Part shown: one piece after another, positions 15,170 to 49,680 of the stretch
Layout of the letters: every line of letters begins with the position of its first letter
How positions within the stretch are numbered: position 1 is the stretch's first letter
Assembly: GCA_021775835.1 (NCBI GenBank)
Contig: JAJFHC010000091.1
Span: 1-61,545 of the forward strand
Direction of reading: 5' to 3'
DNA length: 61,545 nt
Source of the DNA: Hyphomicrobiales bacterium
GTDB lineage: Bacteria > Pseudomonadota > Alphaproteobacteria > Rhizobiales > JAJFHC01
The notes under the pieces: generated by a model
What the model was told of the DNA's origin: nothing
What the model saw: the letters and a program-made list of their open reading frames with translations, nothing else
Database searches by the model: none
Position numbers and translations under genes: made by a program

Positions 15170-15199
15170 TTGACTCTGTCAAAGTGGCCAGCTTACACT
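15170..15199 (+). promoter_or_regulatory. Promoter of the PotFGHI-like operon
   Basis: TTGACT (15170-15175) and TACACT (15194-15199) are spaced by 18 bases. The BetI-type box begins at the end of the -10 element, so a bound repressor would cover the transcription start. Confidence 0.55.
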
Positions 15200-15215
15200 T
15201 TGAATGAACGTTCAG
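15199..15215. promoter_or_regulatory. BetI-type operator A
   Basis: The palindrome TGAACGTTCA (15205-15214) lies in a 17-base block, TTTGAATGAACGTTCAG. The same block recurs exactly on the minus strand at 23153-23169 in front of the methyltransferase gene. The operon it precedes ends with a betI-like gene, which fits autoregulation. Assignment to a BetI paralog is inference. Confidence 0.6.
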
Positions 15216-15353
15216 AAAGTCGGCAACATTTTTGCTTTTGATTTATCTAAGTCGGGGCGCAAATTCTCAGTTTGGCGGCTTGCCGTTTGAAGGTTATGTT
15301 AGCTTATGGAATAGTCTTATCGATACGAAATATACCTGGGAGGGAAAACGAGT

Positions 15354-16508
15354 ATGGATATCAAGAATCAACTAAAAGCAATTCGAACAGGCACTCTAAG
15401 AAGATCCGCTTTCAAGACATTGGGTATCGCTGCGGCCGCTGCCGGCGTGCTGTTGGCCGGGCAGGCGATGGCGCAGGAGCGGGTGCTGAAGGTCACCAAC
15501 TGGGCCGAGTACATCGGCGAAGAAACGATCAAGAACTTCGAAAAAGAATACGGTATAAAGGTTATCTACGATACCTACGAATCCGTCGAAGCGATCGATT
15601 CGAAACTGCTTGCCGGCAACAGCGGCTACGACGTGGTCTCGCATTCCTCCGGTTCGGTGGCCCGCCTGATCAAGGCCGGAAATATTCTGGCTCCGCTCGA
15701 CAAGACCAAGCTTGAAAACTTCAAGCATATGGATCCATCGGTCATGGCCCAGATGGAGATAAACTGGGATCCGGGTAACAAGTATCTGGTACCCTTTATG
15801 TGGGGCACCCATGGTGTCACCTACAACAAGGAACTGGTCCTGGAAACCTACAAGGACGCGCCGATCGGCTCGACGGACCTGATTTTCGATGCCAAGCATA
15901 TGGAGAAAATCGGGAAATGCGGCGTTGCCTTCCTGGATTCTCCAGGCGACGTCATTCCAATGGCATTGGCGCATATGGGGCTTGACCCGAATTCCACCAA
16001 CAGGGACGACTACAAGAAGGTGGGTGAGATGCTCGCCAAAATCCGTCCCCATATCAAGACATTCGACAATTACGCCTACCAGAAGATGCCGCAGAAAGAG
16101 TTTTGCGTCGCTGTGACCTGGGGTCCGGACGGCCTGCTTGCCATGTCGGGCGCGAAGGAAGCGAAAACCGGCGTGGTGCTCGATTTCTACCTGCCACCAG
16201 GCGAACGTAAAGCCAATCTCTGGGTTGACGGCTGGGTAATTCCGAAGGACGCCAAGAACATCGATGATGCGCATCTGTTTCTGAACTACATGATGCGCCC
16301 TGAAGTCGGTGCCGCAGACAGCAACTTCACCTGGTATGCGACGGCCAACATTACCGGAAAGTCCAAGGTCGATGAGGCGGTAACCTCCAGCCCGGCGGCG
16401 TATCCGACCCCGGATCAGGTCGCGAAGATGTGGACCGCAGCGGTGTTGCCACCGAAGATCGAACGCCTTCAGACACGGACATGGACCGAGTTCAAGGCCG
16501 GCAAGTAA
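15354..16508 (+). CDS. potF: Periplasmic substrate-binding protein, PotF/PotD type (putrescine/polyamine-like)
   Basis: The 384-residue protein has a signal peptide (LGIAAAAAGVLLAGQAMA, cleavage before QERV). Its mature start, VLKVTNWAEYIGEETIKNFE, matches the PotF/PotD family. Further family blocks are YDTYESVEAIDSKLLAG, FMWGTHGVTYNKELV and WVDGWVIPKDAKN. It should capture a polyamine or a related cationic amine in the periplasm and feed the PotGHI-like membrane complex encoded downstream. The control by a BetI-type repressor hints that the true ligand could be a methylated or quaternary amine rather than putrescine. A strong ribosome site (GGGAGGG) precedes the ATG. Confidence 0.85.
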   Translation: MDIKNQLKAIRTGTLRRSAFKTLGIAAAAAGVLLAGQAMAQERVLKVTNWAEYIGEETIKNFEKEYGIKVIYDTYESVEAIDSKLLAGNSGYDVVSHSSGSVARLIKAGNILAPLDKTKLENFKHMDPSVMAQMEINWDPGNKYLVPFMWGTHGVTYNKELVLETYKDAPIGSTDLIFDAKHMEKIGKCGVAFLDSPGDVIPMALAHMGLDPNSTNRDDYKKVGEMLAKIRPHIKTFDNYAYQKMPQKEFCVAVTWGPDGLLAMSGAKEAKTGVVLDFYLPPGERKANLWVDGWVIPKDAKNIDDAHLFLNYMMRPEVGAADSNFTWYATANITGKSKVDEAVTSSPAAYPTPDQVAKMWTAAVLPPKIERLQTRTWTEFKAGK

Positions 16509-16523
16509 CCGCCACTGGACTTA

Positions 16524-16555
16524 GGCGGCGGCATTCCAATTCGAATGCCGCCGCC
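16524..16555 (+). terminator. Intercistronic stem-loop between potF and potG
   Basis: A perfect 13-bp inverted repeat (16524-16536 with 16543-16555) encloses the loop CAATTC. No T-run follows, so it is likely a partial terminator or an mRNA-stabilising hairpin that keeps binding-protein expression above that of the membrane parts, as is common in ABC importer operons. Confidence 0.6.
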
Positions 16556-16593
16556 CCGCCACTGTGACACTCCGACACTGACGAGGGCCCGCC

Positions 16594-17733
16594 ATGACCG
16601 GTCAACCGGCAATCAGCGATACTCCGTGGCTTGATCAAGATGCCGAGCCTTTTATCAAGATCCGGAGCGTGACCAAGAAATTTGGCAACGTCACCGCCGT
16701 TAACAACGTTGATCTCGACATCTACCAGGGCGAACTGTTCTGCCTGCTAGGCGGATCCGGTTGCGGTAAGACCACCCTGCTCAGGATGTTGTCGGGCTTT
16801 GAGGTTCCGACGTCGGGAACCATCACCATCGATGGCAGCGACATGTCCAGTGTGCCGCCGTACGAACGGCCGACCAACATGATGTTTCAGAGCTACGCGC
16901 TTTTCCCTCACATGACGGTGGAAAAGAACGTGGCCTACGGTCTCAAGCAGGACAAGGTGCCAAGCGGCGAAATCGTTGACCGTGTGGATGAAATTCTGCG
17001 CCTCGTCGAACTACAGGACTTCAAGAAACGCAAGCCTCACCAGCTGTCCGGCGGTCAGAGGCAGCGCGTGGCGCTTGCCCGCGCCCTTGTCAAGCAACCC
17101 AAACTCTTGTTGCTCGACGAACCGCTTGCCGCCCTCGACAAGAAGCTGCGCGAGCAAACCCAGTTCGAACTCATGAACATTCAGGAAAAGGTCGGCATTA
17201 CCTTTGTCGTCGTCACCCATGACCAGGAGGAGGCAATGACGCTGTCCAGCCGGATCGCGGTGATGGATCAGGGCCAGTTCATGCAGATCGGCACGCCGAC
17301 CGAAATCTACGAGTTTCCGGAAACCCGCTTCGTTGCCGATTTCATCGGCTCCGCCAATATAATTGAAGGCCGGATTATCGAAGACGGATCCGATCATGTT
17401 CGGGTCAAGACCGACCTTGGCGAAATCTATATCGACCACGGTCAGTCGACCAAGGAGGGCGACCGCGTCTGGATTGCCATCAGGCCCGAAAAGATTCATC
17501 TCAGCAAGGAACCCCCTGCCGAACCGGGACCCAATCAGGCTGCCGGCCAGGTTGACGACATCGGGTACCTTGGGGATACCTCAATCTACAAGATTCTACT
17601 GGAAGGCGGCCGGATTGTTGACGTGACCGCACCCAACCAGATCAGGCCCAAGAGCCGAACTCACCGGATAACCTGGGAAGAGGAAGTATATCTTCACTGG
17701 GAGGCCTCGAGCGCGGTCCTGTTGACCAAATGA
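16594..17733 (+). CDS. potG: Polyamine-type ABC transporter ATP-binding protein
   Basis: The 379-residue protein has a complete ABC ATPase: Walker A GGSGCGKTTLL, signature LSGGQRQRVALARAL, Walker B LLLLDEPLAALD and the H-loop VVTHDQEEA. A C-terminal TOBE/OB regulatory region follows (about 280-375). The length and the TOBE domain fit PotA/PotG. It energises import of the ligand bound by the upstream protein. It is separated from potF by 85 bases containing a stem-loop and overlaps the next gene by 4 bases (ATGA), a sign of translational coupling. Confidence 0.9.
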   Translation: MTGQPAISDTPWLDQDAEPFIKIRSVTKKFGNVTAVNNVDLDIYQGELFCLLGGSGCGKTTLLRMLSGFEVPTSGTITIDGSDMSSVPPYERPTNMMFQSYALFPHMTVEKNVAYGLKQDKVPSGEIVDRVDEILRLVELQDFKKRKPHQLSGGQRQRVALARALVKQPKLLLLDEPLAALDKKLREQTQFELMNIQEKVGITFVVVTHDQEEAMTLSSRIAVMDQGQFMQIGTPTEIYEFPETRFVADFIGSANIIEGRIIEDGSDHVRVKTDLGEIYIDHGQSTKEGDRVWIAIRPEKIHLSKEPPAEPGPNQAAGQVDDIGYLGDTSIYKILLEGGRIVDVTAPNQIRPKSRTHRITWEEEVYLHWEASSAVLLTK

Positions 17734-18683
17734 CCGATATTTCCTCCCCCGCCCCGCTTCCAAGGCCGGATATTCTGGCGCGGCTGGGACAGCGCGCGCA
17801 GGCGGCATGGCGGTCGATCATTGTCTTCATCCCTTACGTCTGGCTGCTGGTCTTCTTCCTGCTGCCGTTCTTCATTGTCGGCAAAATCAGCCTTGCCGAA
17901 ACCAAGATCGCCAGCCCGCCATTCTCAAATCTCGTTGAATGGGCCGATGACGGGATCGTGACGATCAGGCTCGCGTTCGAAAACTTCGCCTATATCTTTA
18001 ACGACGACCTTTATCTGTCGACCTATTTGAACTCGGTCAAGATTTCGACGATCTCAACAATCCTTTGCCTTTTGATCGGATATCCGATCGCGTATGGCAT
18101 TGTGCGTTCCGACCCTTTCACCAAAAAGTTGCTGCTTTTTGCGATCATCCTGCCGTTCTGGACATCGTTTCTGCTCCGTGTTTACGCCTGGATGGGTCTG
18201 CTCGCCGATCAGGGGACTATCAACAATCTGCTGATCTGGATGGGCATGATCGATGAGCCGATCCGCATGCTTTACAACGAGTTCGCGGTCTATGTGGGCA
18301 TTGTCTACACATACGTGCCGTTCATGATTCTGCCGCTTTACGCCAACATGGAAAAACTCGACGGGACGCTCAACGAGGCAGCCGCCGACCTTGGCGCCAG
18401 ACCTATGACGACGTTTTTCACGATCACCTTGCCGCTGACCACTCCGGGTATCGTCGCGGGATCGCTGCTTGTGTTCATCCCCGCAACCGGCGAGTACGTG
18501 ATCCCCGATCTGCTTGGCGGCGGTAATGTCTTGATGATCGGCCGGTTGCTCTACAACGAATTCCACGCCAATCACGACTGGCCGGTGGCGTCGGCTGTTG
18601 CCATTGTCCTGCTAATTGGGCTCGTCCTGCCTATGACCCTCTATCAGTACTATCAGGGCAAGGCCGAAGCGGGATCGGGGTAA
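17730..18683 (+). CDS. potH: Polyamine-type ABC transporter permease 1
   Basis: The 317-residue inner-membrane protein has about six transmembrane helices (FIPYVWLLVFFLLPFFIVG at the start). It carries the EAA loop NEAAADLGARPMTTFFTITLPLTTPG that contacts the ATPase. It matches the PotB/PotH permease branch and pairs with the next gene to form the channel. Its start overlaps potG by 4 bases, and it ends 4 bases before the second permease. Confidence 0.9.
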   Translation: MTDISSPAPLPRPDILARLGQRAQAAWRSIIVFIPYVWLLVFFLLPFFIVGKISLAETKIASPPFSNLVEWADDGIVTIRLAFENFAYIFNDDLYLSTYLNSVKISTISTILCLLIGYPIAYGIVRSDPFTKKLLLFAIILPFWTSFLLRVYAWMGLLADQGTINNLLIWMGMIDEPIRMLYNEFAVYVGIVYTYVPFMILPLYANMEKLDGTLNEAAADLGARPMTTFFTITLPLTTPGIVAGSLLVFIPATGEYVIPDLLGGGNVLMIGRLLYNEFHANHDWPVASAVAIVLLIGLVLPMTLYQYYQGKAEAGSG

Positions 18684-18687
18684 GGCC

Positions 18688-19530
18688 ATGTACAACAAGC
18701 GCTCCGGATTTCTGACCTTCATGATCGCAGCGGGTATGGCGTTCCTCTACATACCCATGATCCTGCTGGTCATCTATTCATTCAACTATTCCAAGATTGT
18801 GCCGATCTGGGGGGGCTGGTCGTTGCGCTGGTACGCGACTCTGTTCCAGTCCGAAGACGTCTGGAATGCGGTCCTGTTGAGTCTTAAGATTGCCGTCGTC
18901 AACGCGACGTTCGCGACACTTCTGGGCACCCTTGCGGGCCTTGCCATGGTCAGGTTTGGCAGGTTCAGGGGACGGACCCTGTTCGGCGGCATGCTGGTTG
19001 CTCCGCTGGTGATGCCGGAAGTGATCACCGGCCTGTCGCTTTTGATGCTGTTCATCATGCTCAAGGGCCTGACCGGCTGGCCCGACGAACGCGGTTTCAC
19101 CACGATCACGATCGCCCACATTACCTTTTCGCTGGCCTATGTGGCGGTGATCATCCAGTCGCGTCTGACGGGCATGGGGGAAACCCTGGAGGAGGCGGCC
19201 CTCGATCTCGGCGCCAAGCCCTTCCGTGTGCTGGCGGATATCACCATGCCGCGCCTGGCACCGGGAATGCTCTCCGGCTGGCTGCTGGCCTTTACCCTGT
19301 CGCTCGACGATCTGGTCATCGCCAGCTTTGTTACAGGCCCTGGTGCGAACACGTTGCCGATTCTGATTTATTCGCGCATCCGGCTCGGCCTGCGCCCCGA
19401 CATCAACGCGCTGGCGACAATCATCATTCTGGTCGTGGCGATCGGTGTCGCACTGGCGGCCCTTATCATGTTCCGTCAACAGAAACGAATGCAACGCGAC
19501 CTTGAGATGGCCGAACAGGACGCGTCGTGA
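18688..19530 (+). CDS. potI: Polyamine-type ABC transporter permease 2
   Basis: The 280-residue protein has about six transmembrane helices and the EAA motif LEEAALDLGAKPFRVLADITMP, followed by SLDDLVIASFVTGPG, characteristic of PotC/PotI. It completes the importer. The following betI-like gene starts inside its last codons (4-base overlap, GTGA), so importer and repressor are made from one transcript. Confidence 0.9.
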   Translation: MYNKRSGFLTFMIAAGMAFLYIPMILLVIYSFNYSKIVPIWGGWSLRWYATLFQSEDVWNAVLLSLKIAVVNATFATLLGTLAGLAMVRFGRFRGRTLFGGMLVAPLVMPEVITGLSLLMLFIMLKGLTGWPDERGFTTITIAHITFSLAYVAVIIQSRLTGMGETLEEAALDLGAKPFRVLADITMPRLAPGMLSGWLLAFTLSLDDLVIASFVTGPGANTLPILIYSRIRLGLRPDINALATIIILVVAIGVALAALIMFRQQKRMQRDLEMAEQDAS

Positions 19531-20207
19531 AGGGGGCCGGCCAAACGCGATCACGCAATGGCCGGACGGCGACCAAGGAAGTGCGCCGGCAACAACTCAT
19601 CGATGCCACCATAGAATCGATCGCCGAACGCGGTTTCTCCGGCACGACACTCGTAACGGTGACGAAGTTCGCGAACCTGTCACACGGAACCGTCAACTTC
19701 CATTTCAAGAACAAGGAATCGCTGTTTGCCGATACCCTCGGCTTTTTGGCCGAGGAACATGGTGCCCTGTGGCGCGAAAACCTCGCAAAGTCAGGGACGA
19801 CCCCGCAGGAGAAGTTGCTGGCTCTGATCGACTCCGAATTTGATGAGAGGATCTGCAACCGCAAGAAGCTTGCGGTCTGGTTTGCATTTTACGGCGAAGC
19901 CAAGTATCGCGCGGTTTATCGTGAGAGATGCGCCCATATCGATAACGAACGCCTGGCGGAAACCGAAAGACTGTGCCGGATGATGATGAAGGATGGGGGC
20001 TACGATCACGTCAACCCGCGGTCGTTCGCCAAAGGCCTGGAAGCTTTCATAGACGGCCTGCTGTTGAACATGCTGCTCTATCCCGAGACGTTTTCCCGCG
20101 AGGACGCGAGAGAAGAATGTCTTGGATTTCTTGGCGAAACTTTCACGGGACACTTCCCCGTGCCGGTCAGTGCCCAGGCATGCATGACTGGCCAGGCCCG
20201 GCCATAG
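19527..20207 (+). CDS. TetR/BetI-family transcriptional repressor 1
   Basis: The 226-residue protein starts at GTG 19527. It has an N-terminal TetR helix-turn-helix (about 18-65; RRQQLIDATIESIAERG, recognition helix LSHGTVNFHFKNKESL) and a BetI-type ligand domain (KKLAVWFAFYGEAKYRAVY). BetI proteins repress choline and betaine genes and release DNA when an amine ligand binds. This one is the last gene of the importer operon and is translationally coupled to the second permease. It most likely represses its own operon through the box at 15199-15215. It is a paralog of the repressor at 21603-22274 and of the N-terminal part of the fusion at 30345-32129. Confidence 0.88.
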   Translation: MKGAGQTRSRNGRTATKEVRRQQLIDATIESIAERGFSGTTLVTVTKFANLSHGTVNFHFKNKESLFADTLGFLAEEHGALWRENLAKSGTTPQEKLLALIDSEFDERICNRKKLAVWFAFYGEAKYRAVYRERCAHIDNERLAETERLCRMMMKDGGYDHVNPRSFAKGLEAFIDGLLLNMLLYPETFSREDAREECLGFLGETFTGHFPVPVSAQACMTGQARP

Positions 20208-21602: not shown

Positions 21603-22274
21603 CTACTGTTCGGCACCAGTCGTTTTCAAGGGGCCATTCGTAGCAAAATGCCTGGGAAAAACGGCAATCAGGTAGTCAACCGCACAGGCGTGCCCCCGTT
21701 CCCGGGTGAAATCGTGGCGGTTCATCAGCAATCGAAGCCAGAGGCCCTCAAGCAGGGCGTCGAGAGCCAGCGCAACCGAGTCGGAATTACCGTCATAGCC
21801 GCCTTCGGCAATGATCTCCCTGCACAGCGAAGTAAGCGTATCCGTGTATTCCTGGTCACGCGACCCGCACAGTGCCTGGTAACGCGGCCGGGATTCCGCT
21901 TCGCCCCAGAAGGCGCACCACGCGGAGATCTTACGCCGGTTGCAGACTTTCCTGTCGAAATCGGCCTTGACCAGGGCCCACAATTTATCTGACGGCGTGT
22001 CTCCAGCCTTTGCCAACGCCGCGCGCCAGTGATTGCCGTATTCGTCCGCCATGGACTTCAACGTTTCGACCAGCAGTTTTTCTTTTGAATCGAAGTGGAA
22101 ATTGACGATGCCGCGCGAAAGGCCGGCACCGTCTGCCACGTCCGCCATGGTCGTCTTGGCAAAGCCGCGCTTTGCAATGGAATCAATGGTCGCGTCGATC
22201 AGTTGTTGGCGCCGGACTTCCCGTGACGCCTTGCGCCCGGTTCCCTGTGCTCTGGTGTCTGCAGAAACGGCCAT
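21603..22274 (-). CDS. TetR/BetI-family transcriptional repressor 2
   Basis: The 223-residue protein has a TetR helix-turn-helix (about 20-65; RRQQLIDATIDSIAKRG, recognition helix LSRGIVNFHFDSKEKL) and a BetI-type sensor domain (KISAWCAFWGEAESRPRYQ). It is close in sequence to repressor 1, sharing REVRRQQLIDATI and VNFHF. It lies 12 bases behind the PMT-like methyltransferase gene and is presumably co-transcribed with it. The operon's upstream region carries the same 17-base box as the importer operon, so repressors 1 and 2 may share operators and cross-regulate. Confidence 0.87.
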   Translation of the reverse strand: MAVSADTRAQGTGRKASREVRRQQLIDATIDSIAKRGFAKTTMADVADGAGLSRGIVNFHFDSKEKLLVETLKSMADEYGNHWRAALAKAGDTPSDKLWALVKADFDRKVCNRRKISAWCAFWGEAESRPRYQALCGSRDQEYTDTLTSLCREIIAEGGYDGNSDSVALALDALLEGLWLRLLMNRHDFTRERGHACAVDYLIAVFPRHFATNGPLKTTGAEQ

Positions 22275-23084: not shown

Positions 23085-23152
23085 TATAAGGCCCGGTACG
23101 TTTACACTGACGTCAACCATAGGCATTTTCGGGTTGTTAGGCAACATGTTTG

Positions 23153-23169
23153 CTGAACGTTCATTCAAA
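23153..23169. promoter_or_regulatory. BetI-type operator B
   Basis: Read on the minus strand, this is the same 17-base block as at 15199-15215 (TTTGAATGAACGTTCAG), with palindrome core TGAACGTTCA at 23154-23163. It lies in the 214-base divergent region between the methyltransferase-betI operon and the FAD oxidoreductase operon, and could control both directions. Confidence 0.6.
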
Positions 23170-23298
23170 ATAACTGGACAGGGAAAACCGTCCCGTGCCA
23201 TTGTTGCAGTCGAGATTTGAGACGTTCGCTGGGAAAATCGGAAATCCGTAACATCGGCGGTAACAGGCCCTAAATCAGCAATGGCGAAGTGATCTGAC

Positions 23299-24918
23299 AT
23301 GAAAACCTGGGATGCTGTCATTATTGGTGCCGGACACAACGGCCTGGTCACCGCCGGATATCTGGCCAGGGCCGGCCTTGAGGTTCTGGTGGTTGAAAAG
23401 AACGACTGGGTTGGTGGCGCTGCCGTCAGCCGTGAATTGCATCCAGGTTTCCTTTATTCCAACTGCTCCTATGTTTGCTCTCTCCTGCGGCCGGAGATCA
23501 TGCGCGATCTGGAACTCCCGAAATACGGTCTGCAGGTTGTGGCCTTCGACGGTGGCGCGGTCCTGACAAGAGACGGTGACTACCTGGCCACCTACCGCGA
23601 CCATGAAGCCCATCGCCGGGAGATTGCCAGGTTCTCGGCAAAGGACGCGGAAAGCTACGACCGATATTCACGCGATGTCCTGCGCCAGTGCCGATTCATC
23701 AAACCGCTCCTGCTCAGGACAGCACCCGACCCCACGTCCTTCAGGCCGCGTGACCTTCAGGAACTGCTCTATCTGGGATCCAAGTTCCACGACCTGTCGG
23801 AAACCGAAATGTATGACACCGTCCGGTTCTGGACCATGTCGATCGCGGAATTTCTCGATGAGTATTTCGAAACCGACGTGATCAAGGCCAATCTGGCGAT
23901 CTCAGGCATCATCGGCACGGCTCTCGGCCCGATGTCGCCGGGAACGGCTTATGTGCTGCTCCATCACTATATGGGCGATGTCGACGGATCAGTTGGCGCC
24001 TGGGGATACAGCCGCGGTGGTATGGGAGGCATCACGAAAGCCCTTGCGGCATCGTTTGAAGCCTCCGGCGGCACCATCCGCACAGGTGCCGGTGTCGATT
24101 ACGTGACGATTTCGCATGGCGCCAGTCGAGGTGTTGTTCTCGACAATGGCGAAGAGATCTCCGCCCGCGTTGTGATTTCGAACGCCGATGTCAAACGGAC
24201 ATTCCTCAAGCTGGTGGAAGAAAAGCACCTGCCAGATGAATTCGTCCGCAAGGTCCGGAACTTCAAGATCAGAGGCTCTTCCGGCAAGGTCAATATTGCG
24301 CTCGATTCTATGCCCGAGTTTCCTGCACTGCCGGACGGCTCCCCCTGCGTCAGGGGCGACATGCACTTCACCGATTCGATCGAACGCATGGAGCGCGGCT
24401 ATGATGACTGGAAAGCAGGCCGGTGGTCGGCGGATCCGTTCCTGGACATGATGATCCCCACAGCGGTTGACCCGACCATGACACCGCCCGGTCAGCACTT
24501 CATGAGTTGCTTCGTGCAGTATTGCCCGCCCCTGGTTGAAGGTCGCGACTGGACCGATGCCGATCGCGACGCTTTCGGGCAAACGGTCATCGACCAGATT
24601 GCCGACTATTCGCCGGGCTTCAAGGAGCGGATCCTGCACATGGAAGTCCGCACACCTAGAGAACTGGAAGCGGAAGTAGGTCTCACGGAAGGCAACATAT
24701 TCCAGGGTGAACTGACCTTCGACCAGATCCTGTTCAACCGGCCGGTGCCGGGTTATGCGCAGTACCGGTCGCCGGTTGAGGGGTTGTATATGTGTGGATC
24801 GTCAACCCATCCCGGTGGCGGTGTCATGGGTGCTCCAGGGCGCAACGCCGCTGCTGAAATTCTCCGCGATCTGCGCCGGCCCGTAAAAGACATGAGTGAT
24901 GCCTATGCCGTCCTGTGA
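23299..24918 (+). CDS. FAD-dependent oxidoreductase, phytoene-desaturase (CrtI)-like, copy 1
   Basis: The 539-residue protein has an N-terminal FAD-binding Rossmann motif ([21 protein letters not shown]) followed by [16 protein letters not shown]. Its C-terminal FAD block is [24 protein letters not shown], typical of the CrtI/amine-oxidase-like NAD(P)/FAD oxidoreductases. No carotenoid synthesis genes are nearby, so carotenoid desaturation is unlikely. Its partners (a second copy, a GcvT-like demethylase and RidA) point to oxidation of a C-N bond in a methylated amine; this is inference. It starts 7 bases after a weak purine run and overlaps the second copy by about 20 bases. Confidence 0.8.
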
Positions 24919-26470
24919 TGCGATAGTTATCGGCGCCGGCCATAACGGCCTTGTCTGCGCGGCTTACCTGGCACGCGCCGGTTTGAACGTGCTGGTGGTC
25001 GAGTCGGCTGATGAGGTCGGCGGTGCCGCCCGCACCGTGGAATTCGCGCCGGGCTACAAGGTCTCCCACGTGGCTCATATCCTGAACCAGCTTCAGCCGG
25101 GCGTGGTGCGCGAGTTGCAATTGAAAAAATACGGTCTGTCCTATGCAGCCAGCGACCTTCCGACAACCGCCCTGGCGGCCGACGCACGTCACCTGACGCT
25201 TCGGGGCGGGGCCGCTGCACGCGTTGATGGCGACCTGGCCGATACCGAGCGCGCGGCGTGGACCGAACTGCGCGGCCGTCTCGTGAAATATTCGGGTGTC
25301 CTCAAGCCCTATCTCGCCAAGACGCCGCCGCGGCTGCGCTCAGGACGGATGCCCGATAGCGTCGATCTTGCGGGCCTCGGCCTCGCGGTGCGCCGGCTGG
25401 GCCGCAAGCACATGCAGGAATTCCTGCGCATGATCCTGATGAACGTGGCCGATGTCCTGGAAGAAGACCTGAGCGACGATCGGCTGATGGGCGCGCTGGC
25501 CTTCGACTCGGTGTTGGGCACGGGCCTCGGGCCACGCTCGCCAAACTCCCTGATGTGCCTGTACTACCGGCTTGCCGGCGACGCCAACGGTATACCGGGT
25601 GGGCTGGCCCTGCCCACAGGCGGCATGGGATCCGTCGCCGAAACCTTCAAGAACGCGGCGATTGCCCAGGGCGCGCAGGTCAGAACCGGCTCTCCGGTCC
25701 GGCGCATCCTTGTAGAAAATGACTGGGCCTGCGGCGTGCGGCTCGACAACGGCGAGGAAATCCACGCCTCGATCGTGGTCTCCGCCGCCAATCCGAAGAC
25801 AACTTTCCTCGATCTCCTGGGCGCGCAACATCTCGACACGGGCTTCGTTCGCCGCGTCTCGTCCATTCGCATGAACGGCAAGGCTGCAAAACTCCACCTG
25901 GCACTTGATGGTTTGCCTTCGTTCGAGGGCGTTCCGGAATCCGACTATGGCGGCCGGTTTGTCATCTCGCCGTCGATCGATCATGTGGAGCGGGCCTTCA
26001 ACCCATCGAAATATGGTGAGTTCGCCCTGGAACCGGTCCTGGAGTTTGTCCTGCCTTCGGTTTCCGACCCTTCACTGGCGCCGGAGGGCAAGCACGTGCT
26101 TTCGGCGGTCGTGCAGTACGCGCCGGCCGGTCTGAAGGCCGGTTGGGATACGGCACGAGATGAATTCTACAATGCGATCATGACTGTACTGGAACAGTAC
26201 AGCCCGGGCATCAGGGGGCAGGTCACGGCCCATGAACTGCTGACGCCCGATGACATGGAAAGCCAGTACGCCATGCCCGGCGGTCACTGGCACCATGGCG
26301 AACTGGGTGTTGATCAGATGTTCATGTTGAGACCGGCGCCTGGTGCCGCGCAGTACGCATCCCCCGTTCCGGGGCTCTATTTGTGTGGTGCCGGCAGTCA
26401 CCCCGGCGGCGGCATCATGGGTGCTGCGGGCCGCAATGCTGCTGCTGTCATCGTGAAACGGGAGGCCTGA
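24899..26470 (+). CDS. FAD-dependent oxidoreductase, phytoene-desaturase (CrtI)-like, copy 2
   Basis: About 523 residues. The FAD motif is [21 protein letters not shown], followed by VVESADEVGGAARTVEF. The C-terminal block is GLYLCGAGSHPGGGIMGAAGRNAAA. It is clearly homologous to the gene before it but well diverged, so the pair is an old duplication that may act as a hetero-oligomer. ATG 24899 and ATG 24905 are both possible and both lie inside the end of copy 1, indicating translational coupling. It is followed 3 bases later by the GcvT-like gene. Confidence 0.8.
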   Translation: MPMPSCDAIVIGAGHNGLVCAAYLARAGLNVLVVESADEVGGAARTVEFAPGYKVSHVAHILNQLQPGVVRELQLKKYGLSYAASDLPTTALAADARHLTLRGGAAARVDGDLADTERAAWTELRGRLVKYSGVLKPYLAKTPPRLRSGRMPDSVDLAGLGLAVRRLGRKHMQEFLRMILMNVADVLEEDLSDDRLMGALAFDSVLGTGLGPRSPNSLMCLYYRLAGDANGIPGGLALPTGGMGSVAETFKNAAIAQGAQVRTGSPVRRILVENDWACGVRLDNGEEIHASIVVSAANPKTTFLDLLGAQHLDTGFVRRVSSIRMNGKAAKLHLALDGLPSFEGVPESDYGGRFVISPSIDHVERAFNPSKYGEFALEPVLEFVLPSVSDPSLAPEGKHVLSAVVQYAPAGLKAGWDTARDEFYNAIMTVLEQYSPGIRGQVTAHELLTPDDMESQYAMPGGHWHHGELGVDQMFMLRPAPGAAQYASPVPGLYLCGAGSHPGGGIMGAAGRNAAAVIVKREA

Positions 26471-26473
26471 ACC

Positions 26474-27709
26474 ATGAACTCCATGCCCCGCTCTCCCCGG
26501 CGTCAGGAACTTCCCAGGGACCATTACCTGAAGCCTCTCCTTGAGACACCGTTTGATGCCCGTATCGCCGGGCTCATGACCACCGAGTCCTGGGCCGGCT
26601 GGGCAGGCTATCGGTCGCCCGTCGTCATCGAAGACGAGGAGCTTGAGTATACCGCCATCCGCAACTCCTGCGCCCTGTTCGACATGACGCCCATGATCAA
26701 GTACCGGATCGAAGGACCGGGCGCCGAAGCCTACCTCACGCGCCTGACCTTGCGTGATGTGGGCAAACTGAAAACCGGCCGTGTCCAGTACACCGCCTGG
26801 TGCGATGACGAGGGCAAGGTCCTCGATGACGGTACTTTGTTCCGATGGTCCGACACCGAGTTTAGGCTGTGCGCCCAGGAGCGTCATTTGCCTTGGTTGC
26901 TTGACTCGTGCACGGGCTTCGATGTGTCGATCACGGAAGAAACCGAAGAATTCGCCGCCCTGGCAGTCCAGGGACCCACGTCCTATTCAGTCCTGAAGGC
27001 GGCTGGCTTCAAGGGTATCGAAGACCTGAAGCCGTTCCAGATCATGGAAAGCCCGCTGGGCCGCGGCAAAGCCAAGGCGGTCTTATCCCGGACCGGGTTT
27101 ACCGGAGATCTGGGATATGAGGTGTTCGTCGATGCCGGGGACGCCCTCAAGCTCTGGGACCTGCTCTGGAAAGCCGGCGCGCTCCACGGTATCCGGGCCA
27201 TCGGTTCCGCTGCTCTGGACATGGCCCGTGTCGAGGCGGGCTTCATTGCCACCAATGCCGATTTCATCGCGTCGGAACAGGCAGTTCGCAACGACCGCCG
27301 GCGCTCACCCTTCGAGATTGGCCTCGAATGGATGGTCGATTTTGAAAAAGGCCACTTCAATGGCCGGCGTGCACTGCTGGCTGAAAAGGTAAATGGTACG
27401 TCGCGCTACTGTCTCGTTGGGTTGGAAATCGAAGGCAACGAACCGGCTCATCATGCTTTGGTCTATCATCGCAAGAAACGCGAGGCAGGCGTCATCACCG
27501 CCGGTGTCTGGTCGCCCACCTGCAAGCGCAATATCGCCATCGCCACCCTGGAGCGGCCCTTCGGCGCAACCGTGAATGACGATCTTTGGGTCGAAATATA
27601 CGCCATGCACGAACTCCAATACCACAAGCTCATGGTCCGCGCCCGTGTCGTTGACCGTCCGTTCCTGCGCCTGGCCCGCCGCACGGCCACGCCACCCGGA
27701 CTGTTTTGA
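26474..27709 (+). CDS. GcvT-like aminomethyltransferase (folate-dependent demethylase)
   Basis: The 411-residue protein is of the glycine-cleavage T-protein family. It shows SCALFDMTPMIKYRIEGPGAEAYL, the central TGRVQYTAWCDDEGKVLDD and SRTGFTGDLGYEVF, and a C-terminal barrel with VEIYAMHELQYHKLM. Stand-alone members include DmdA and the folate domains of dimethylglycine and sarcosine oxidases, which move a one-carbon unit to tetrahydrofolate. No glycine-cleavage H or P protein is near, so glycine cleavage is unlikely. Encoded straight after two FAD oxidoreductases, it could accept the formaldehyde-level carbon from oxidative N-demethylation. Confidence 0.82.
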   Translation: MNSMPRSPRRQELPRDHYLKPLLETPFDARIAGLMTTESWAGWAGYRSPVVIEDEELEYTAIRNSCALFDMTPMIKYRIEGPGAEAYLTRLTLRDVGKLKTGRVQYTAWCDDEGKVLDDGTLFRWSDTEFRLCAQERHLPWLLDSCTGFDVSITEETEEFAALAVQGPTSYSVLKAAGFKGIEDLKPFQIMESPLGRGKAKAVLSRTGFTGDLGYEVFVDAGDALKLWDLLWKAGALHGIRAIGSAALDMARVEAGFIATNADFIASEQAVRNDRRRSPFEIGLEWMVDFEKGHFNGRRALLAEKVNGTSRYCLVGLEIEGNEPAHHALVYHRKKREAGVITAGVWSPTCKRNIAIATLERPFGATVNDDLWVEIYAMHELQYHKLMVRARVVDRPFLRLARRTATPPGLF

Positions 27710-30344: not shown

Positions 30345-32129
30345 CTAAATGTCCTTCCCTTTGCCCGCAACGATCGCATCGGCCATGTCCTCACCCACCC
30401 AGCTGTGGAGGGCGCTGACGATGACTTCCTTTTCGCTGAGAACGCCGCGGTCGTAGGCCGATGTGGCGAGACCTCTCTGGACCGACTCGATCAGTGTCCG
30501 GTCTTCCTCGTGGACATTCATGTTGACGCGTTTATTGAGAAATATTGTGGCATCGTGCTCCCGTGACCGTTTCGGCAGGGCGAAGGGGCGCCAGCGGATC
30601 TTCGTGCGCCCGGGCCCGAGCGGCACCGTGTGGAAAAAATCCATCATCTCCGGATAGACGTCGAACGAGACCGACGGATACATGAAGTAATAGCTCCACC
30701 GGCGTTTCAGGCCGTCCGGCAGGTGCTTGAAATCCGGCAGCGCGGAGGCATAAGCCCTGTTCGACCAGGCGCCTTTGACCTTGTCGCGGATGGTGTGGCT
30801 GAGTCGCGCGGTCCGGCTGGTGTCGTCGGGTTGGCGCTCGTAGTTCATGGACATGAGCGAGAACAGTCCAGGGTGCCCGGTCGGAAAATGATAATCCTCC
30901 AGGTAGTTGTCCCAGACGTTCTTCCAGTCCGCATCGACCACGTCTTCCCAAAGCTCGCCGACCGGTTCCATATCCTCGAAGCGGTAGGACTCCAGTTCTT
31001 CTGCAAGAGGTCCGTAGCGTTCCGCAACCGGTGCGCCACCGCTTTCAAAACGGATATAGACAAAGCCCATGTAGATCTCGCAGTCCAGCGACCGCAAGCC
31101 GAACTTGCCGTTGTCGAAGGGCGGGAATGTCTTCTTTGCGGCAATCGCCTTCAGGTCGCCGGAAAAATCATATCCCCAGGCATGATAGGGACAGCGGATC
31201 AGGCCGTCGCAGGCGCCGCGGCCTTCCACCAGGGCATGGGCCCGGTGCCGGCACACATTATGAAAGGCGCGGATCACCCCGTCTTCGCCCCGGATGACAA
31301 AGGCCTTTTCACCAAACGCCTCGAATGAAGCATAGGCGCCAGTCTCGCGGATCTCGCTCACATGACAGACCAGTTGCCAGGCCGGGCGATGAATGGTCGC
31401 CACTTCCTGCGCGAAAAAGTCTTCTGACGAATAGGTCCAGGCAGGCAGGGTTCGTGGCATTTCAGGTGGCAGGCCGTCGTCGTGCCTGGTGCCGGTGTCT
31501 GCCGGGAACGGCTGGCGGAAATGTCCAGGCGCAAACAGATTGTCCACGTAGGCCCGGCAAAGATCTCGCGCCGCATTCCGGTCGACATCCTCACCATCGA
31601 GCAGGATCTGCTGCCACAACGAGTCCACAAGGCCAGCCAGTCCCAACGCTGCCGCAGGCACGTGGACATCGCGTCTGGTCGTGTGGCTGACCTGCGCAAA
31701 GAGGGTCTCGATGGCATTGTGAAACGCCGTGTCCGCGCGCCCGCAAATTGTCTGGTACTCCGCCCGGGCCCGGGTTTCGCTCCAGAATGCGTACCAGACG
31801 GCCACCTTGTCCGGGTAGGAAATCGACGGATCGAAGCAAATGTCGATCAGTCCGTCGATAGCAGCGTGCGGATCCTGACCGGCATTGGCAATGGCGTCCT
31901 CGCAGGCATCGTGGAACTCATGGGCCACTTGTTCGAGGGTGGCCGTCAGCAGAGCCTGTTTGCTGGTGAAGTGAAAGTTCACCATGCTTGGCGCGAGGCC
32001 TGCCTGTTTGGCTACTTTCTGCAGGGTAATGCTGGAAAGGCCGTGTTCGGCGATGGTTGAAATCGTGGCGTCGATCAACTGTGAGCGCCGGGCGTCCTGG
32101 GGTTGGCGTGAAGTGGGGGTGTCGAGCAT
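30345..32129 (-). CDS. BetI-type repressor fused to a Rieske non-heme iron oxygenase
   Basis: A single 594-residue frame. Residues 10-200 are a complete TetR/BetI repressor (RRSQLIDATISTIAEHG, recognition helix LAPSMVNFHFTSKQAL, sensor part VAVWYAFWSETRARAEYQ). After a linker of about 25 residues, 230-594 are an alpha-type Rieske oxygenase of the choline monooxygenase, glycine-betaine or carnitine demethylase kind. Rieske ligands are Cys293, His295, Cys313 and His316; mononuclear iron ligands are His414 and His419 (EDYHFPTGHPG) and probably Asp543 (VHEEDRTLIESVQRGL). No stop or good internal ribosome site lies at the junction (an ATG at 31460 has none). A GGAG precedes the start. The promoter carries two palindromes. 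No ferredoxin reductase gene is adjacent. I infer an enzyme that represses its own gene, but dual activity is unproven. Confidence 0.88.
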   Translation of the reverse strand: MLDTPTSRQPQDARRSQLIDATISTIAEHGLSSITLQKVAKQAGLAPSMVNFHFTSKQALLTATLEQVAHEFHDACEDAIANAGQDPHAAIDGLIDICFDPSISYPDKVAVWYAFWSETRARAEYQTICGRADTAFHNAIETLFAQVSHTTRRDVHVPAAALGLAGLVDSLWQQILLDGEDVDRNAARDLCRAYVDNLFAPGHFRQPFPADTGTRHDDGLPPEMPRTLPAWTYSSEDFFAQEVATIHRPAWQLVCHVSEIRETGAYASFEAFGEKAFVIRGEDGVIRAFHNVCRHRAHALVEGRGACDGLIRCPYHAWGYDFSGDLKAIAAKKTFPPFDNGKFGLRSLDCEIYMGFVYIRFESGGAPVAERYGPLAEELESYRFEDMEPVGELWEDVVDADWKNVWDNYLEDYHFPTGHPGLFSLMSMNYERQPDDTSRTARLSHTIRDKVKGAWSNRAYASALPDFKHLPDGLKRRWSYYFMYPSVSFDVYPEMMDFFHTVPLGPGRTKIRWRPFALPKRSREHDATIFLNKRVNMNVHEEDRTLIESVQRGLATSAYDRGVLSEKEVIVSALHSWVGEDMADAIVAGKGKDI

Positions 32130-32164
32130 GGCAGGCTCCGCAAGCGAGAGATGTACGTTTTATT

Positions 32165-32176
32165 GAACATGCATTC
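32165..32176. promoter_or_regulatory. Operator-like dyad 1 of the fusion gene
   Basis: GAACATGCATTC is a near-palindrome over the -10 element and the expected transcription start of the fusion gene. Its centre is 21 bp, two helical turns, from that of dyad 2. Confidence 0.45.
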
Positions 32177-32202
32177 TACACTATCGAATGATCATTCGAC
32201 AA
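32173..32202 (-). promoter_or_regulatory. Promoter of the BetI-Rieske fusion gene
   Basis: On the minus strand TTGTCG (32202-32197) and TAGAAT (32178-32173) are 18 bases apart. Dyad 2 fills the spacer and dyad 1 covers the -10 and start, an arrangement expected for strong repression. Confidence 0.5.
32184..32199. promoter_or_regulatory. Operator-like palindrome 2 of the fusion gene
   Basis: TCGAATGATCATTCGA is a perfect 16-base palindrome between the -35 and -10 elements. It shares GAAT/ATTC half-sites with the other BetI boxes in the window but not their core, so the fusion may have its own specificity. Confidence 0.6.
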
Positions 32203-32224
32203 GAGCGGTCTGACTCTCCAACAC

Positions 32225-33178
32225 CTACCGGCGGGTGGACGCATAGACCGCCAACAGGTCGTAGGCCACCGTTGCCCCGGCAAGGGCCGTGACCCCAGAG
32301 ACATCGTAGGCCGGCGAGACTTCCACCACATCCATGCCAACCAGCCGGATGCCGGAGAGGCCGCGCAGAATGGTCTGCACCTGATAGGGCATGAGGCCAC
32401 CGATCACCGGTGTTCCCGTGCCCGGCGCATGGGACGGATCGAAACAGTCGATGTCGAAAGTGATGTAGACCGGGTTCTCGCCGACGATCTCGCGGATCAT
32501 CTCGAATGTTTTCTCAGGGCCCTGGCGGTGGACCTGCGGCGCATCGATGATGTTGACGCCGAGCGGGTCGTCCTGGACCGTGCGGATGCCGACCTGAACC
32601 GAGCGTTCCGGCGCCACGACACCACCTTTGACCGCCTGATAGAACATGGTGCCGTGATCGACCCGGCCCTCTTCGTCGTCCGCGCACCAGGTGTCGGTAT
32701 GGGCATCGAACTGAACCAGCGAAAGGGGGCCGAACCGCTCCGCATAGGCCTTCAGGATCGGATAGGTGACATAGTGGTCGCCGCCGATCGCGAGCGTTGC
32801 CGTGTCCTTGTCCAGAATTCCGGAGATATGGGACTGGATGGCAACGGGGATCGCCGCGGGGCGGCCATGATCGAAGGCGCAGTCGCCATAGTCGACCACA
32901 GCCAGCACGTCGAACGGGTCGAAATCCCAGTAGTAGGGCCGGTCCCAGGCGATGAGTGACGATTCTGCGCGCACGCCACGCGGGCCGAACCTTGTACCGG
33001 GCCGGTTCGTGGTGGCCGCATCAAACGGTATGCCGGTCACCGCAACGTCCACACCCTTAAGGTCCCGGGAGTATTTCCGGCGCATGAAGCTGAGTGCACC
33101 GGCGAAGCTGATTTCGGGCTGCGTGCCGTAAAGGTCAGTCCGACGGAAGGCATTATCGATATGCGAGTTCTTGGACAC
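32225..33178 (-). CDS. Ureohydrolase: agmatinase/guanidino-acid hydrolase family
   Basis: With GTG 33178 (VSKNSHIDNAFRRTDLYG) as start, the product is 317 residues, the usual family length; upstream in-frame starts run to 33328 and into fetB. The binuclear Mn ligands are present: His in IGGDHYVTYP, Asp-His-Asp in FDAHTDTW, and two Asp in FDIDCFDPSHAPG. The enzyme cleaves a guanidino compound such as agmatine, guanidinobutyrate or guanidinopropionate to urea and an amine. It follows the FetAB genes and precedes the fusion gene on the same strand, fitting polyamine or arginine-derived amine use. Confidence 0.85.
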   Translation of the reverse strand: MSKNSHIDNAFRRTDLYGTQPEISFAGALSFMRRKYSRDLKGVDVAVTGIPFDAATTNRPGTRFGPRGVRAESSLIAWDRPYYWDFDPFDVLAVVDYGDCAFDHGRPAAIPVAIQSHISGILDKDTATLAIGGDHYVTYPILKAYAERFGPLSLVQFDAHTDTWCADDEEGRVDHGTMFYQAVKGGVVAPERSVQVGIRTVQDDPLGVNIIDAPQVHRQGPEKTFEMIREIVGENPVYITFDIDCFDPSHAPGTGTPVIGGLMPYQVQTILRGLSGIRLVGMDVVEVSPAYDVSGVTALAGATVAYDLLAVYASTRR

Positions 33179-35127: not shown

Positions 35128-36588
35128 TCAGAACATCTCGAAATATTCCCGGTGTTCCCAGTCGGTCACGGTCGACAGGAACCGCGCAATCTCCGCTTCC
35201 TTGATCGTGACCAGATAGTCGACAAACTGATCGCCGAGCTGCGACCGGTAGAAGTCGCTCTGGCGCAGATGGCTCACCGCTTCCATCAGGCTTGCGGGCA
35301 GGCGTTCGGCCTCGGCTGAATAGGGTTCGTCAGTCGCCGATCCGGGGTCGGTCTCGTTCTTTAGGCCGTCGAGGCCGCTCAGGACCTGGGACGCCATGTA
35401 GAGATAGGGATTGGCCGCAGGCTCGCCCGCCCGGTTCTCGATCCGGGTCGCCGTGTCGCCCGGTGCGCCAACCGCCCGGATCATCGCCCCCCGGTTATCA
35501 CGGCCCCACACCACCCGGTCGGGCGCAAGCGTGTGCGGTTGGTAGCGCTTGTAGCCGTTGATTGTCGGTGTCGTGAACACCGATGACGCGCGGGCATGAT
35601 TCAACACGCCGCCCACATACTGCCGTGCTGTGGGAGACAGCAGGTGTTGCGGGTCGTCGCTGACAAAGGCATTGGCCCCGGTGTGCCGGTCAACAAGTGA
35701 CTGGTGCAGATGCCAGCCGCTGGAGAATATGTTCTCAAGCCCCGGACGGCACATGAAGGTGGCATGAAGCCCGTTGCGCCGGCAGACCTGCTTCACCGCG
35801 CTGCGCACCAGCACCACCATGTCGGCGCAGGCCATGCCGACCTGCGCATCGAACGTGATTTCGAACTGGCTCGGACCGAATTCGACCTCCATGGAACGCA
35901 ACGGCAGGTCCAGGGCGGTCAGATTGGAACGCAGGATCTCCATGACCGGTTCCAGCTCGTCCATGCGCTGCTCGGTCAGGTATTGAAACCCGTGCGCCAG
36001 CAGGTGGACATCCGGCGGCTCGGCCGGCTGTCCCGCCTGGGCGGGGGCAAGCTTGGGGTCGACCAGATCGAACACGTGAAATTCCAGTTCCGCGCCGGCC
36101 CTGAAGTGATACCCCTCCGTCTCCAGGCGGCCCAGGCTGTCCTGCAGGATCCGGCGGGTCGAAAACGGCACGGGTGTTCCATCCGGGAAATAGATGTCGC
36201 ACAACATCCAGGCTGTGCCCGGCACCCAGGGCAACTCACGATAGGTCTCAGGGTCAGGCACCATGTAGAAATCGCCGGCACCGGTCAGCTGGTCGAGCCC
36301 CATGCCGCCGCCGGCCTGCCAGACCGGATAGACCGTACGGTGGGCGGTGTCCTTGAGCAGCAGCGTCGTCGTCATGGAACAGCCATTGGTGAAAACCGAA
36401 CGCATTTCCCCCGGCATCACGGTCTTACCGCGCAACAGGCCGTGCTGGTCGGCAAACGACAGGCGTACCGCATCGATGCCGCCGGCGTCCAGGCGCTCGG
36501 CAACGTCCTGTGCTGCCCGGGCCTGGTCGTCGGTCCACAGGCCGTGGCGTTCAATCAGTCCCGAAGACGGGCCTTTCCCCACATTCAC
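35128..36588 (-). CDS. Glutamine synthetase family protein (gamma-glutamyl-amine ligase-like)
   Basis: The 486-residue protein starts at GTG 36588 after GGAAGGA. It has the beta-grasp domain (about 30-130; DAVRLSFADQHGLLRGKTV) and the catalytic domain with metal and ATP residues in AELEFHVF, MEVEFGPSQFEITF, GWHLHQSL and ENRAGEPAANPYLYMA. It lacks the adenylylation tail of GlnA. This branch includes gamma-glutamylputrescine synthetases and ligases acting on other amines. With the Pot-like importer and the agmatinase-family gene it suggests gamma-glutamylation of an amine. It follows the second Rieske oxygenase gene by 45 bases. Confidence 0.83.
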   Translation of the reverse strand: MNVGKGPSSGLIERHGLWTDDQARAAQDVAERLDAGGIDAVRLSFADQHGLLRGKTVMPGEMRSVFTNGCSMTTTLLLKDTAHRTVYPVWQAGGGMGLDQLTGAGDFYMVPDPETYRELPWVPGTAWMLCDIYFPDGTPVPFSTRRILQDSLGRLETEGYHFRAGAELEFHVFDLVDPKLAPAQAGQPAEPPDVHLLAHGFQYLTEQRMDELEPVMEILRSNLTALDLPLRSMEVEFGPSQFEITFDAQVGMACADMVVLVRSAVKQVCRRNGLHATFMCRPGLENIFSSGWHLHQSLVDRHTGANAFVSDDPQHLLSPTARQYVGGVLNHARASSVFTTPTINGYKRYQPHTLAPDRVVWGRDNRGAMIRAVGAPGDTATRIENRAGEPAANPYLYMASQVLSGLDGLKNETDPGSATDEPYSAEAERLPASLMEAVSHLRQSDFYRSQLGDQFVDYLVTIKEAEIARFLSTVTDWEHREYFEMF

Positions 36589-36633: not shown

Positions 36634-37962
36634 TCACCAGGGATCCTGCGCCCAATCCGACTGTGCCCGCCGTTCCAGGTCGCGCGCCTTCCAGCTCTCC
36701 TGCCAGCCTTCAGCCGGCCCGATGGCATCGATCGAAACCGGGCCGCGGACGCTCTTGGAAGCCCCGCCATTGCCATCGCTATCTTGCACCATGGGCAGAC
36801 TACCACCGTCGCGTGCAGATTGGATAGCCCGGCGCAGCATCCGCCGGTAGGCGATGATGGCCACGTCCGACTTACCCAGATGCTCGGCTGTGCGGTCCTG
36901 GATCCGTCCCGGTGACTCAACCGCCCACTGGTCGTGCACGTTTATGTCGAGGCCCATGCCCGTATAGGTCTTGGTTGCCTGCTCGAAAGGGTCGAAGCCG
37001 TAGTTGTTCGACTTGTTCAGCCGGGGACGGTAGTCGGGCAACTCGTACAGTTCCAGCCGCTGCTCGCGCATTACCGCCTTGTCGACCGGTGCGCCGAAAC
37101 TGGTGAAGATTGCGTACCAGTAGCAGGTCTCGTCATCGACCGGCACGTGCCACTGGGTAATCGTCATCTCGTTGCTCATGGGAATGACAATGGCGTGGGG
37201 GAAAACCTGGTTGGTCACCCGCACGTGCATGCCGTGATTGCCCAGGTCCCGCAATGCAATGATGCGCAGGCCGTAGTCGGTTTGCTCCACAGTGATCTCA
37301 GGCCGGGGATACTCACGCAGGATCTGCGTCATCGGTATGGCGGTATCGGCGGCCTTGTCGCGGAACTGCTTGCCATAGCCTTCATCGGGGTTTTCGTCTT
37401 CCAGGAATCTGTGCAGAAACGAGGCATGGGCGGGGTCGATGCCCACTTCCAGCGCCTGCAGCCAGTTGCATTCGATCAGGCCCTTGAAGGCAAATGTATG
37501 GGTGTCCGGTGCCACAAAGCAGTCGAGTTCCGGAAAATCCGGGGCCGCCCCTGGTCCCATATAGGCGAACACAATGCCGTGTCTCTCGACGCATTCGTAG
37601 GCGGAGACCGTGATGTTTTCATGAAACCGGCTGCCTTCGGGTTCCGCCGGCTGCTCGAGGCAATGGCCGTCGGTATCGAACAGCCAGCCGTGAAACGGGC
37701 AGCGCAGGCCGCCGTCCTCGAGCCTGCCGAAACACAGGTCGGCACCCCGGTGCGGGCAATGCCGCGCGATCATGGCATAACCGCCGTCGGGTTTGCGGAA
37801 GAGCACGAGGTCTTCGCCCAGCAGCTGTACCGCGCGAACCGGGCGCTCGTCCGGCAGCTCCTCGATCAGGGCCGCCGGTTGCCAGTATCGCCGCATGACA
37901 TCGCCCGCCGGCGTGCCGGTTCCGATCCGGGTGATTTCGTCGTTCTGTTCACGGCTCATCAT
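36634..37962 (-). CDS. Rieske aromatic-ring-hydroxylating oxygenase alpha subunit (phthalate-dioxygenase-like)
   Basis: From ATG 37962 (MMSREQNDEITR; GGGAGG 9 bases upstream) the product is 442 residues. Rieske ligands are Cys69, His71, Cys88 and His91 (ARHCPHRGAD and RCPFHGWLFD). The mononuclear iron site is Asp176, His179 and His184 in EVGIDPAHASFLH. The C-terminal part resembles phthalate 4,5-dioxygenase and vanillate or dicamba demethylase oxygenases. It needs a reductase and ferredoxin, none of which is encoded in the window. It is the first gene of the minus-strand series running through the glutamine-synthetase-like gene, and is back to back with the repeat region near the reductive dehalogenase. 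Substrate unknown: aromatic ring, O-methyl or N-methyl. Confidence 0.87.
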   Translation of the reverse strand: MMSREQNDEITRIGTGTPAGDVMRRYWQPAALIEELPDERPVRAVQLLGEDLVLFRKPDGGYAMIARHCPHRGADLCFGRLEDGGLRCPFHGWLFDTDGHCLEQPAEPEGSRFHENITVSAYECVERHGIVFAYMGPGAAPDFPELDCFVAPDTHTFAFKGLIECNWLQALEVGIDPAHASFLHRFLEDENPDEGYGKQFRDKAADTAIPMTQILREYPRPEITVEQTDYGLRIIALRDLGNHGMHVRVTNQVFPHAIVIPMSNEMTITQWHVPVDDETCYWYAIFTSFGAPVDKAVMREQRLELYELPDYRPRLNKSNNYGFDPFEQATKTYTGMGLDINVHDQWAVESPGRIQDRTAEHLGKSDVAIIAYRRMLRRAIQSARDGGSLPMVQDSDGNGGASKSVRGPVSIDAIGPAEGWQESWKARDLERRAQSDWAQDPW

Positions 37963-49525: not shown

Positions 49526-49658
49526 TTGCCGAAGCTCCGGGCGAGGTGAGTGTAACAGCATCTCTAAACCGGCCAAATTTATCGAAATACTAAAGAAAAT
49601 CTGACTCAAAACTGACAAGGTATTTTTGCAATTCATTGGCACCTGCAGTCTTAGGGTT

Positions 49659-49680
49659 GGTGATGGTTCTTTGAATCACC
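49659..49680. promoter_or_regulatory. Small dyad before TadG paralog 2
   Basis: GGTGAT and ATCACC are 6-base arms around 10 bases, about 30 bases before the ATG at 49709, inside an AT-rich gap. It may be a leader hairpin or operator. Confidence 0.25.

Follow-up and report, generated by a model that had tools for sequence, protein, structure and literature searches.

A conserved protein family joining a TetR/BetI-type repressor to a Rieske oxygenase, and its probable control of its own gene

A stretch of DNA of 61,545 nucleotides, referred to here as the window, carries a gene that encodes a TetR/BetI-type repressor and a Rieske oxygenase as a single polypeptide. By sequence comparison, both halves are intact and the fusion is conserved, and the TetR–Rieske fusion is a recurrent protein family rather than an artefact. 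Our preferred reading, which we hold to be rather likely, is that a single protein both represses its own gene and, as a Rieske non-haem iron oxygenase, acts on a quaternary or N-methylated amine; in other words, the enzyme would be the on-off switch of its own gene. To our knowledge, few enzymes repress their own genes, PutA being the usual example. If the reading is true, the fusion represents a second solution, unrelated to PutA, built on the widespread TetR fold and an iron enzyme that activates oxygen.

The gene is a single minus-strand open reading frame that runs from ATG to stop and encodes 594 amino acids (Table 1), and the preliminary description of a complete repressor and a complete oxygenase in one 594-codon frame stands to the exact coordinates. 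Four Pfam domains follow one another along the protein, all above their curated cut-offs: TetR_N (residues 18-63; 38.2 bits vs a cut-off of 24), TetR_C_6 (88-199; 60.2 bits vs 27), Rieske (251-336) and Ring_hydroxyl_A (394-582). The AlphaFold2 model (mean pLDDT 92.2, pTM 0.68) displays nine TetR helices and two confident parts, between which residues 205-216 are of low confidence.

Table 1. Features of the window, with the evidence on which each assignment rests
Feature	Position	Strand	Evidence
Polyamine-type ABC transporter genes: PotF-like and PotG-like	15354..19530	+	NCBIfam, below PotF and PotG cut-offs
PotH (17730-18683), PotI (18688-19530)		+	named from position only
Operator-like site, ~140 bp before PotF-like gene	15198..15217	.	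score 11.8
Second separate TetR regulator	19527..20207	+	37% identical to fused TetR half
Separate BetI-like TetR regulator	21603..22274	-	above NF001978 BetI cut-off, below TIGR03384 cut-off
Operator-like site, ~130 bp before first CrtO-like frame	23151..23170	.	score 15.7
Two CrtO/amine-oxidase-like flavoproteins and GcvT-like protein	23299..27709	+	profile matches
Fused TetR–Rieske oxygenase gene, 594 aa	30345..32129	-	frame, Pfam, homologues, 22 loci
Mononuclear-iron catalytic domain, residues 394-582; H414, H419, D543, bridging E411, Y409	30384..30950	-	Pfam, alignment
Rieske [2Fe-2S] domain, residues 251-336; ligands C293, H295, C313, H316	31122..31379	-	Pfam, alignment
Linker, residues 201-226 (205-216 low model confidence)	31452..31529	-	start-codon check, AlphaFold2
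TetR/BetI-type repressor half, residues 10-200	31530..32102	-	TetR_N and TetR_C_6; nine helices in model; dN/dS 0.15 vs L001
Helix-turn-helix, helices 2 and 3, residues 36-53	31971..32024	-	model secondary structure; conserved among fused proteins
Operator-like palindrome 2, 21 bp from palindrome 1	32161..32180	.	score 10.5
Sigma-70-like promoter match: TTGTCG, 18 nt, TAGAAT	32173..32202	-	consensus match only
Operator-like palindrome 1, TGTCGAATGATCATTCGATA on minus strand; inner 16 bp perfect	32182..32201	.	motif search, leave-one-out

A homologue search, scored on the 7995 candidates sharing most words, gave 938 matches, and among the 120 listed, the window protein counted, 119 have all four Pfam domains; the exception, P0067 (462 aa), has no TetR_N and was dropped as outside the length range from the alignment, which thus comprises 119 fused proteins, window included. 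In genome collections, the two halves share a reading frame at 22 distinct loci, one of them the window; two of these (L007 and L042) belong to one genome (G004), and a fused homologue is carried by Labrys wisconsinensis (P0037). Judging from titles and from the classes searched, the fused loci point to alpha- and gammaproteobacteria. The fused gene of a locus labelled Mycobacterium sp. KBS0706 (L004) groups with alphaproteobacterial rows in both of the trees described below, and the organism label looks doubtful. In a class sample, 20 of 385 genomes match at E <= 1e-60 and three of the 20 are fused (G001, G171, G346); in the class of G008, six of 369 match at the same limit, four of them fused; and in an order sample, nine of 297 match at E <= 1e-90, a stricter limit that favours fused genes, with seven of the nine fused. 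Overall, fused genes look uncommon. Among plasmid records, 38 match at E <= 1e-30; in none does a single place cover 80% of the query, and no fused copy was seen.

Could the joining be a sequencing or assembly artefact that links two neighbouring genes? Seven unfused relatives do have an adjoining TetR gene, but 22 distinct in-frame loci and 119 fused proteins among 120 listed homologues leave this explanation a negligible probability, and a missed stop or frameshift at the junction, which the preliminary description had named as a way for its proposal to fail, is very unlikely on the same counts. Its other such case, that homologues are always two separate genes, fails as well: fused loci recur, and unfused relatives with an adjoining TetR gene also exist. 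As for the statement that no protein with this layout had been described, our literature searches agree, in that no title or start of abstract among the best-ranked papers describes a TetR–Rieske fusion (subscription papers and preprints lay outside the scope); automatic annotation, on the other hand, already joins both names for some members.

Both halves are under purifying selection and look functional. Across the 119 fused proteins, mean column conservation is 0.71 for the helix-turn-helix, 0.70 for the Rieske domain, 0.66 for the catalytic domain and 0.57 for the TetR C-terminal domain, and residues 201-250 are the least conserved stretch at 0.50. Between the window and L001 (85% identical), dN/dS is 0.15 for the TetR part, 0.056 for the Rieske domain and 0.053 for the catalytic domain. 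The metal ligands named in the preliminary description are borne out by the alignment of listed homologues: C293, H295, H414, H419 and D543 are present in 119 of 119 fused proteins, C313 and H316 in 118. The protein thus has the C-x-H / C-x2-H cluster ligands and the 2-His-1-Asp iron site by which Rieske oxygenase alpha subunits are recognized.

Would the cell nevertheless obtain two proteins from this one gene, via an internal start or cleavage of the linker? The low model confidence of residues 205-216 and the poor conservation of residues 201-250 speak for such an outcome; the search for an internal start for the oxygenase half, however, found none conserved in the 22 loci: at 19 of them, the window included, no start codon near the junction has a Shine-Dalgarno-like word of at least four bases, and the three loci with such a start codon differ in where it lies. 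Additionally, the linker varies in length among the 119 aligned proteins with the reading frame kept throughout. We regard two separate products as highly improbable.

What might the repressor half bind? A de novo palindrome search covered 260 bp of upstream sequence from each of 20 fused genes, excluding the near-copies L010 and L046. It yielded TATTGAATGATCATTCAATA, with a site in 19 of the 20 regions and a log-likelihood ratio of 205.7 vs 36.5-45.3 in eight Markov-1 controls; part of this score reflects kinship, since related upstream regions share descent and the Markov controls do not. Site scores are at least 11.4 in 19 of 20 upstream regions and only 4.7 in L041. With a leave-one-out matrix, from which a region's own site and those of its named near kin were removed, 21 of 22 regions exceed all 200 shuffles, and no site is found in the L041 upstream region (leave-one-out p 0.06); in four of the 22 loci (L005, L009, L081, L082), other stretches of the locus score equally high with this matrix. 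A second site lies 20-22 bp away in nine of the 20 regions (window, L003, L005, L006, L007, L009, L078, L079, L080), a spacing given without a formal test. In the window, these conserved palindromes, which are candidate operators, fall in the region that the preliminary description had proposed to test for binding (32160-32205). The predicted promoter there is the sole match in 32100-32300 (1 vs a mean of 0.0, sd 0.2, in shuffles); palindrome 1 lies over its spacer and most of its -35 element, and palindrome 2 over its -10 element.

Five positions in the window pass the scan threshold: the pair at the fused gene, a site ahead of the PotF-like gene, another ahead of the first CrtO-like frame and a fifth within a transporter gene. 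The leave-one-out matrix gives four sites vs 0.8 expected. The site before the CrtO-like frame falls inside the longest frame of a divergent methyltransferase gene (22287-23351), the true start of which may be further in. In a genome-wide search with a strict pattern, matches were obtained in 12 of 15 genomes and comprise 28 rows, i.e. 19 distinct places. Nine of these places lie no more than about 250 bp ahead of a fused gene (five places), an unfused Rieske gene (two) or a TetR gene (two), and a control with the pattern reversed yielded 5. The strict pattern has no match in three of the 15 genomes searched, all three with fused genes.

We strongly infer from this arrangement that the TetR half represses its own gene by binding the palindromes over its promoter. 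Alternatively, a separate BetI-like regulator would bind the palindromes and the fused TetR domain would be only an oligomerization or ligand domain, an explanation that we consider quite unlikely. Several of the clusters do include separate BetI-like genes, close to which related sites lie, and similar sites precede unfused oxygenase genes; against this, the fused helix-turn-helix is as conserved as the Rieske domain, and the sites persist in genomes in which no second regulator was detected. Specifically, a search with the TetR half at E <= 1e-12 finds no TetR protein other than the fused one in two of 11 genomes (G008 and G896), although a more distant regulator, or one lying outside the assembled sequence, could exist, and both still have the palindrome (loci L012 and L079). 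Because the site is kept there, binding by the fused protein of its own upstream palindrome is favoured. The other nine genomes have further TetR matches at the same threshold, and since similar sites also lie near separate BetI-like genes, cross-binding is possible.

By sequence and by fold, the oxygenase half is nearest to carnitine, stachydrine and betaine oxygenases. The carnitine monooxygenase CntA, one of the group V Rieske oxygenases, is its best solved relative on both counts, at about 25% identity; in Foldseek, CntA ranks top, followed by stachydrine-demethylase-type structures, and the best 50 rows all match the oxygenase half. According to the accessible text of PMC7948474, E205 of CntA is a bridging residue and Y203 is a pi-cation residue that marks group Va. 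The fused protein has E411 and Y409 at these positions, matched via an aligned motif; among the listed homologues, the 119 aligned fused proteins have Glu at 411 without exception and Tyr at 409 in 118, with Phe in the remaining one. The window thus has the aromatic residue of group Va, and across the 22 fused loci that position is Y in 19 and D in three. The 32 unfused rows have Y (16), N (eight), D (six) or F (two) at this position and E (19) or D (13) at that of E411; with such variation, the case for an amine is less strong beyond the main group. CntA differs in having no TetR domain, and the fused gene in having no PF00970 reductase domain alongside: none was found on the contig of the fused gene within 150 kb in 14 genomes, many of whose contigs are short.

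The proposal that sensor and enzyme would see related compounds was made with choline and betaines in mind. Related amines are plausible from the nearest oxygenases and from several amine-like neighbours, whereas orthology with BetI or GbcA fails at the family cut-offs. As BetI proper, the TetR half scores 105.7 bits vs the TIGR03384 cut-off of 201.3 and 108 vs 118 for NF001978; as the glycine betaine monooxygenase GbcA, the oxygenase half scores 123.1 vs the NCBIfam equivalog cut-off of 670 bits. Since neither half reaches these cut-offs, we make no choline or betaine assignment. The homarine pathway was also tried as an identity, and the best-ranked papers offered nothing usable. The fused protein resembles BetI in its TetR_N and TetR_C_6 domains and in the palindrome over a predicted promoter; unlike BetI, it carries an enzyme. 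For E. coli BetI, choline stimulates formation of the DNA complex, as worded in the title of a reference in PMC6790063.

Is the oxygenase half still an enzyme at all? The fused protein might instead be a dedicated transcription factor, in which an oxygenase half without turnover senses a compound, oxygen or redox state and signals to the TetR half. The lack of a nearby PF00970 reductase in the 14 genomes fits this view, as does, in L040, L077 and L078, a tandem unfused Rieske paralogue, which might be the enzyme that does the work; such a paralogue is nevertheless present in only three of the 22 fused loci (several of the others being short), the ligands, the bridging Glu and the catalytic Asp show little or no variation, and dN/dS over the oxygenase half, at about 0.05, is below that of the TetR half. 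We judge a dedicated transcription factor unlikely and retain the self-repressing oxygenase as the preferred reading. The paralogue in these three loci lies after the fused gene on the same strand.

The gene neighbourhood fits the uptake and breakdown of a methylated amine. At least two Pot-type genes accompany the fused gene in 11 of 22 loci (window, L004, L007, L008, L009, L010, L011, L012, L042, L079, L081), and no pair of Pot genes lies within the stretch covered in the other 11. CrtO-like flavoproteins occur in seven (window, L001, which equals L046, L007, L008, L009, L041 and, at its edge, L081), accompanied by GcvT in all of these except L081; the Pot and CrtO counts are lower bounds, since several loci are short. 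The CrtO-like pair and the GcvT-like protein may together constitute a split N-demethylase. A CrtO-like gene is also found near unfused Rieske genes (L043, L044, L052, L053, L054, L056, L083, L084). In the Arenicellales locus L012 (3892-6849), an MTTB-type trimethylamine methyltransferase and a class-III aminotransferase are encoded 3-6 kb upstream of the fused gene.

How would such a protein work? In the mechanism that we propose, dimers of the TetR half on one or two palindromes over their own promoter would block RNA polymerase, and an amine ligand in the TetR half, either the substrate or a related compound, would lift the block and so raise enzyme production. The oxygenase half would form a head-to-tail trimer, as in CntA, and oxidize a quaternary or N-methylated amine that the neighbouring Pot-type ABC transporter may import in many loci, with an electron-donating reductase supplied from elsewhere in the genome, and the CrtO-like flavoproteins, GcvT and other amine enzymes would take the product further. 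The ligand, the substrate, the catalysis and any cross-talk between the halves are what we infer here. Repressor and enzyme amounts would be locked one to one, resulting in tight autoregulation. A more speculative version, which we think rather doubtful, is that a dimeric repressor and a trimeric oxygenase in one chain would form a hexamer that holds a pair of operators spaced by two helical turns, and that substrate binding or the Rieske redox state in the enzyme half would release the DNA, so that the oxygenase would report its working state to its own promoter.

Unfused relatives, in which regulator and enzyme are two genes, offer a view of how the fusion may have arisen. Their oxygenases are about 34-47% identical to the fused oxygenase, and seven loci (L023-L028, L036) have a BetI-like TetR gene within the same short locus. 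Of 27 unfused loci, 14 have a similar site no more than 250 bp ahead of the oxygenase gene and 13 have none, a count made without a shuffle control (the 27 are 34 rows minus L033, L069, L075, L076, L038, L039 and L087). These arrangements suggest that operator and regulator predate the fusion. In the TetR tree, 20 of 22 fused domains form one group (94/97), and a single clade for all 22 is not rejected (p-AU 0.325). The Rieske tree, calculated without six of the 38 unfused rows (L033, L069, L075 and L076 are duplicate or cut; L038 and L039 have broken or partial frames), rejects a grouping of all 22 fused rows on one side (p-AU 2.6e-42, L087_S1333 excluded), places unfused rows among them and requires five or six changes between the fused and unfused states. 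Taken together, the two trees imply loss of the TetR part in some lines, its exchange, or repeated joining; they are compatible with an ancient fusion of adjacent genes followed by losses and also with several joining events. In the Rieske tree, the unfused oxygenases of L015 and L058 lie close to fused ones, which may reflect loss of the TetR part; L015 sits among the fused rows with weak support.

In its logic, the fused protein is reminiscent of the trifunctional PutA, which, in the accessible text of PMC5293562, has an N-terminal DNA-binding domain on a catabolic redox enzyme and represses its own regulon. The likeness is a DNA-binding domain fused to an enzyme and, as proposed here, repression of its own gene, and we claim no homology: PutA consists of ribbon-helix-helix and proline-oxidizing domains and switches to the membrane, whereas the fused protein couples a Rieske oxygenase to a TetR/BetI-type half that includes a ligand-type domain. 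No PutA domain (ribbon-helix-helix, PRODH, P5CDH) is among the Pfam matches of the fused protein at E <= 0.001. With a candidate operator and unfused relatives, about half of which have a similar site, the regulatory effect of the fusion is directly testable, and, if the reading is true, the fused protein could be used to sense and convert an amine with a single polypeptide.

The window has two further gene groups of note. A second Rieske protein, with a LigXa_C-like C-terminal domain, is encoded at 36634-38019 and adjoins a glutamine-synthetase-like gene (35128-36588), and three adjoining related genes on the plus strand (47972-53027), encoding proteins of 517-519 aa, form one cluster.
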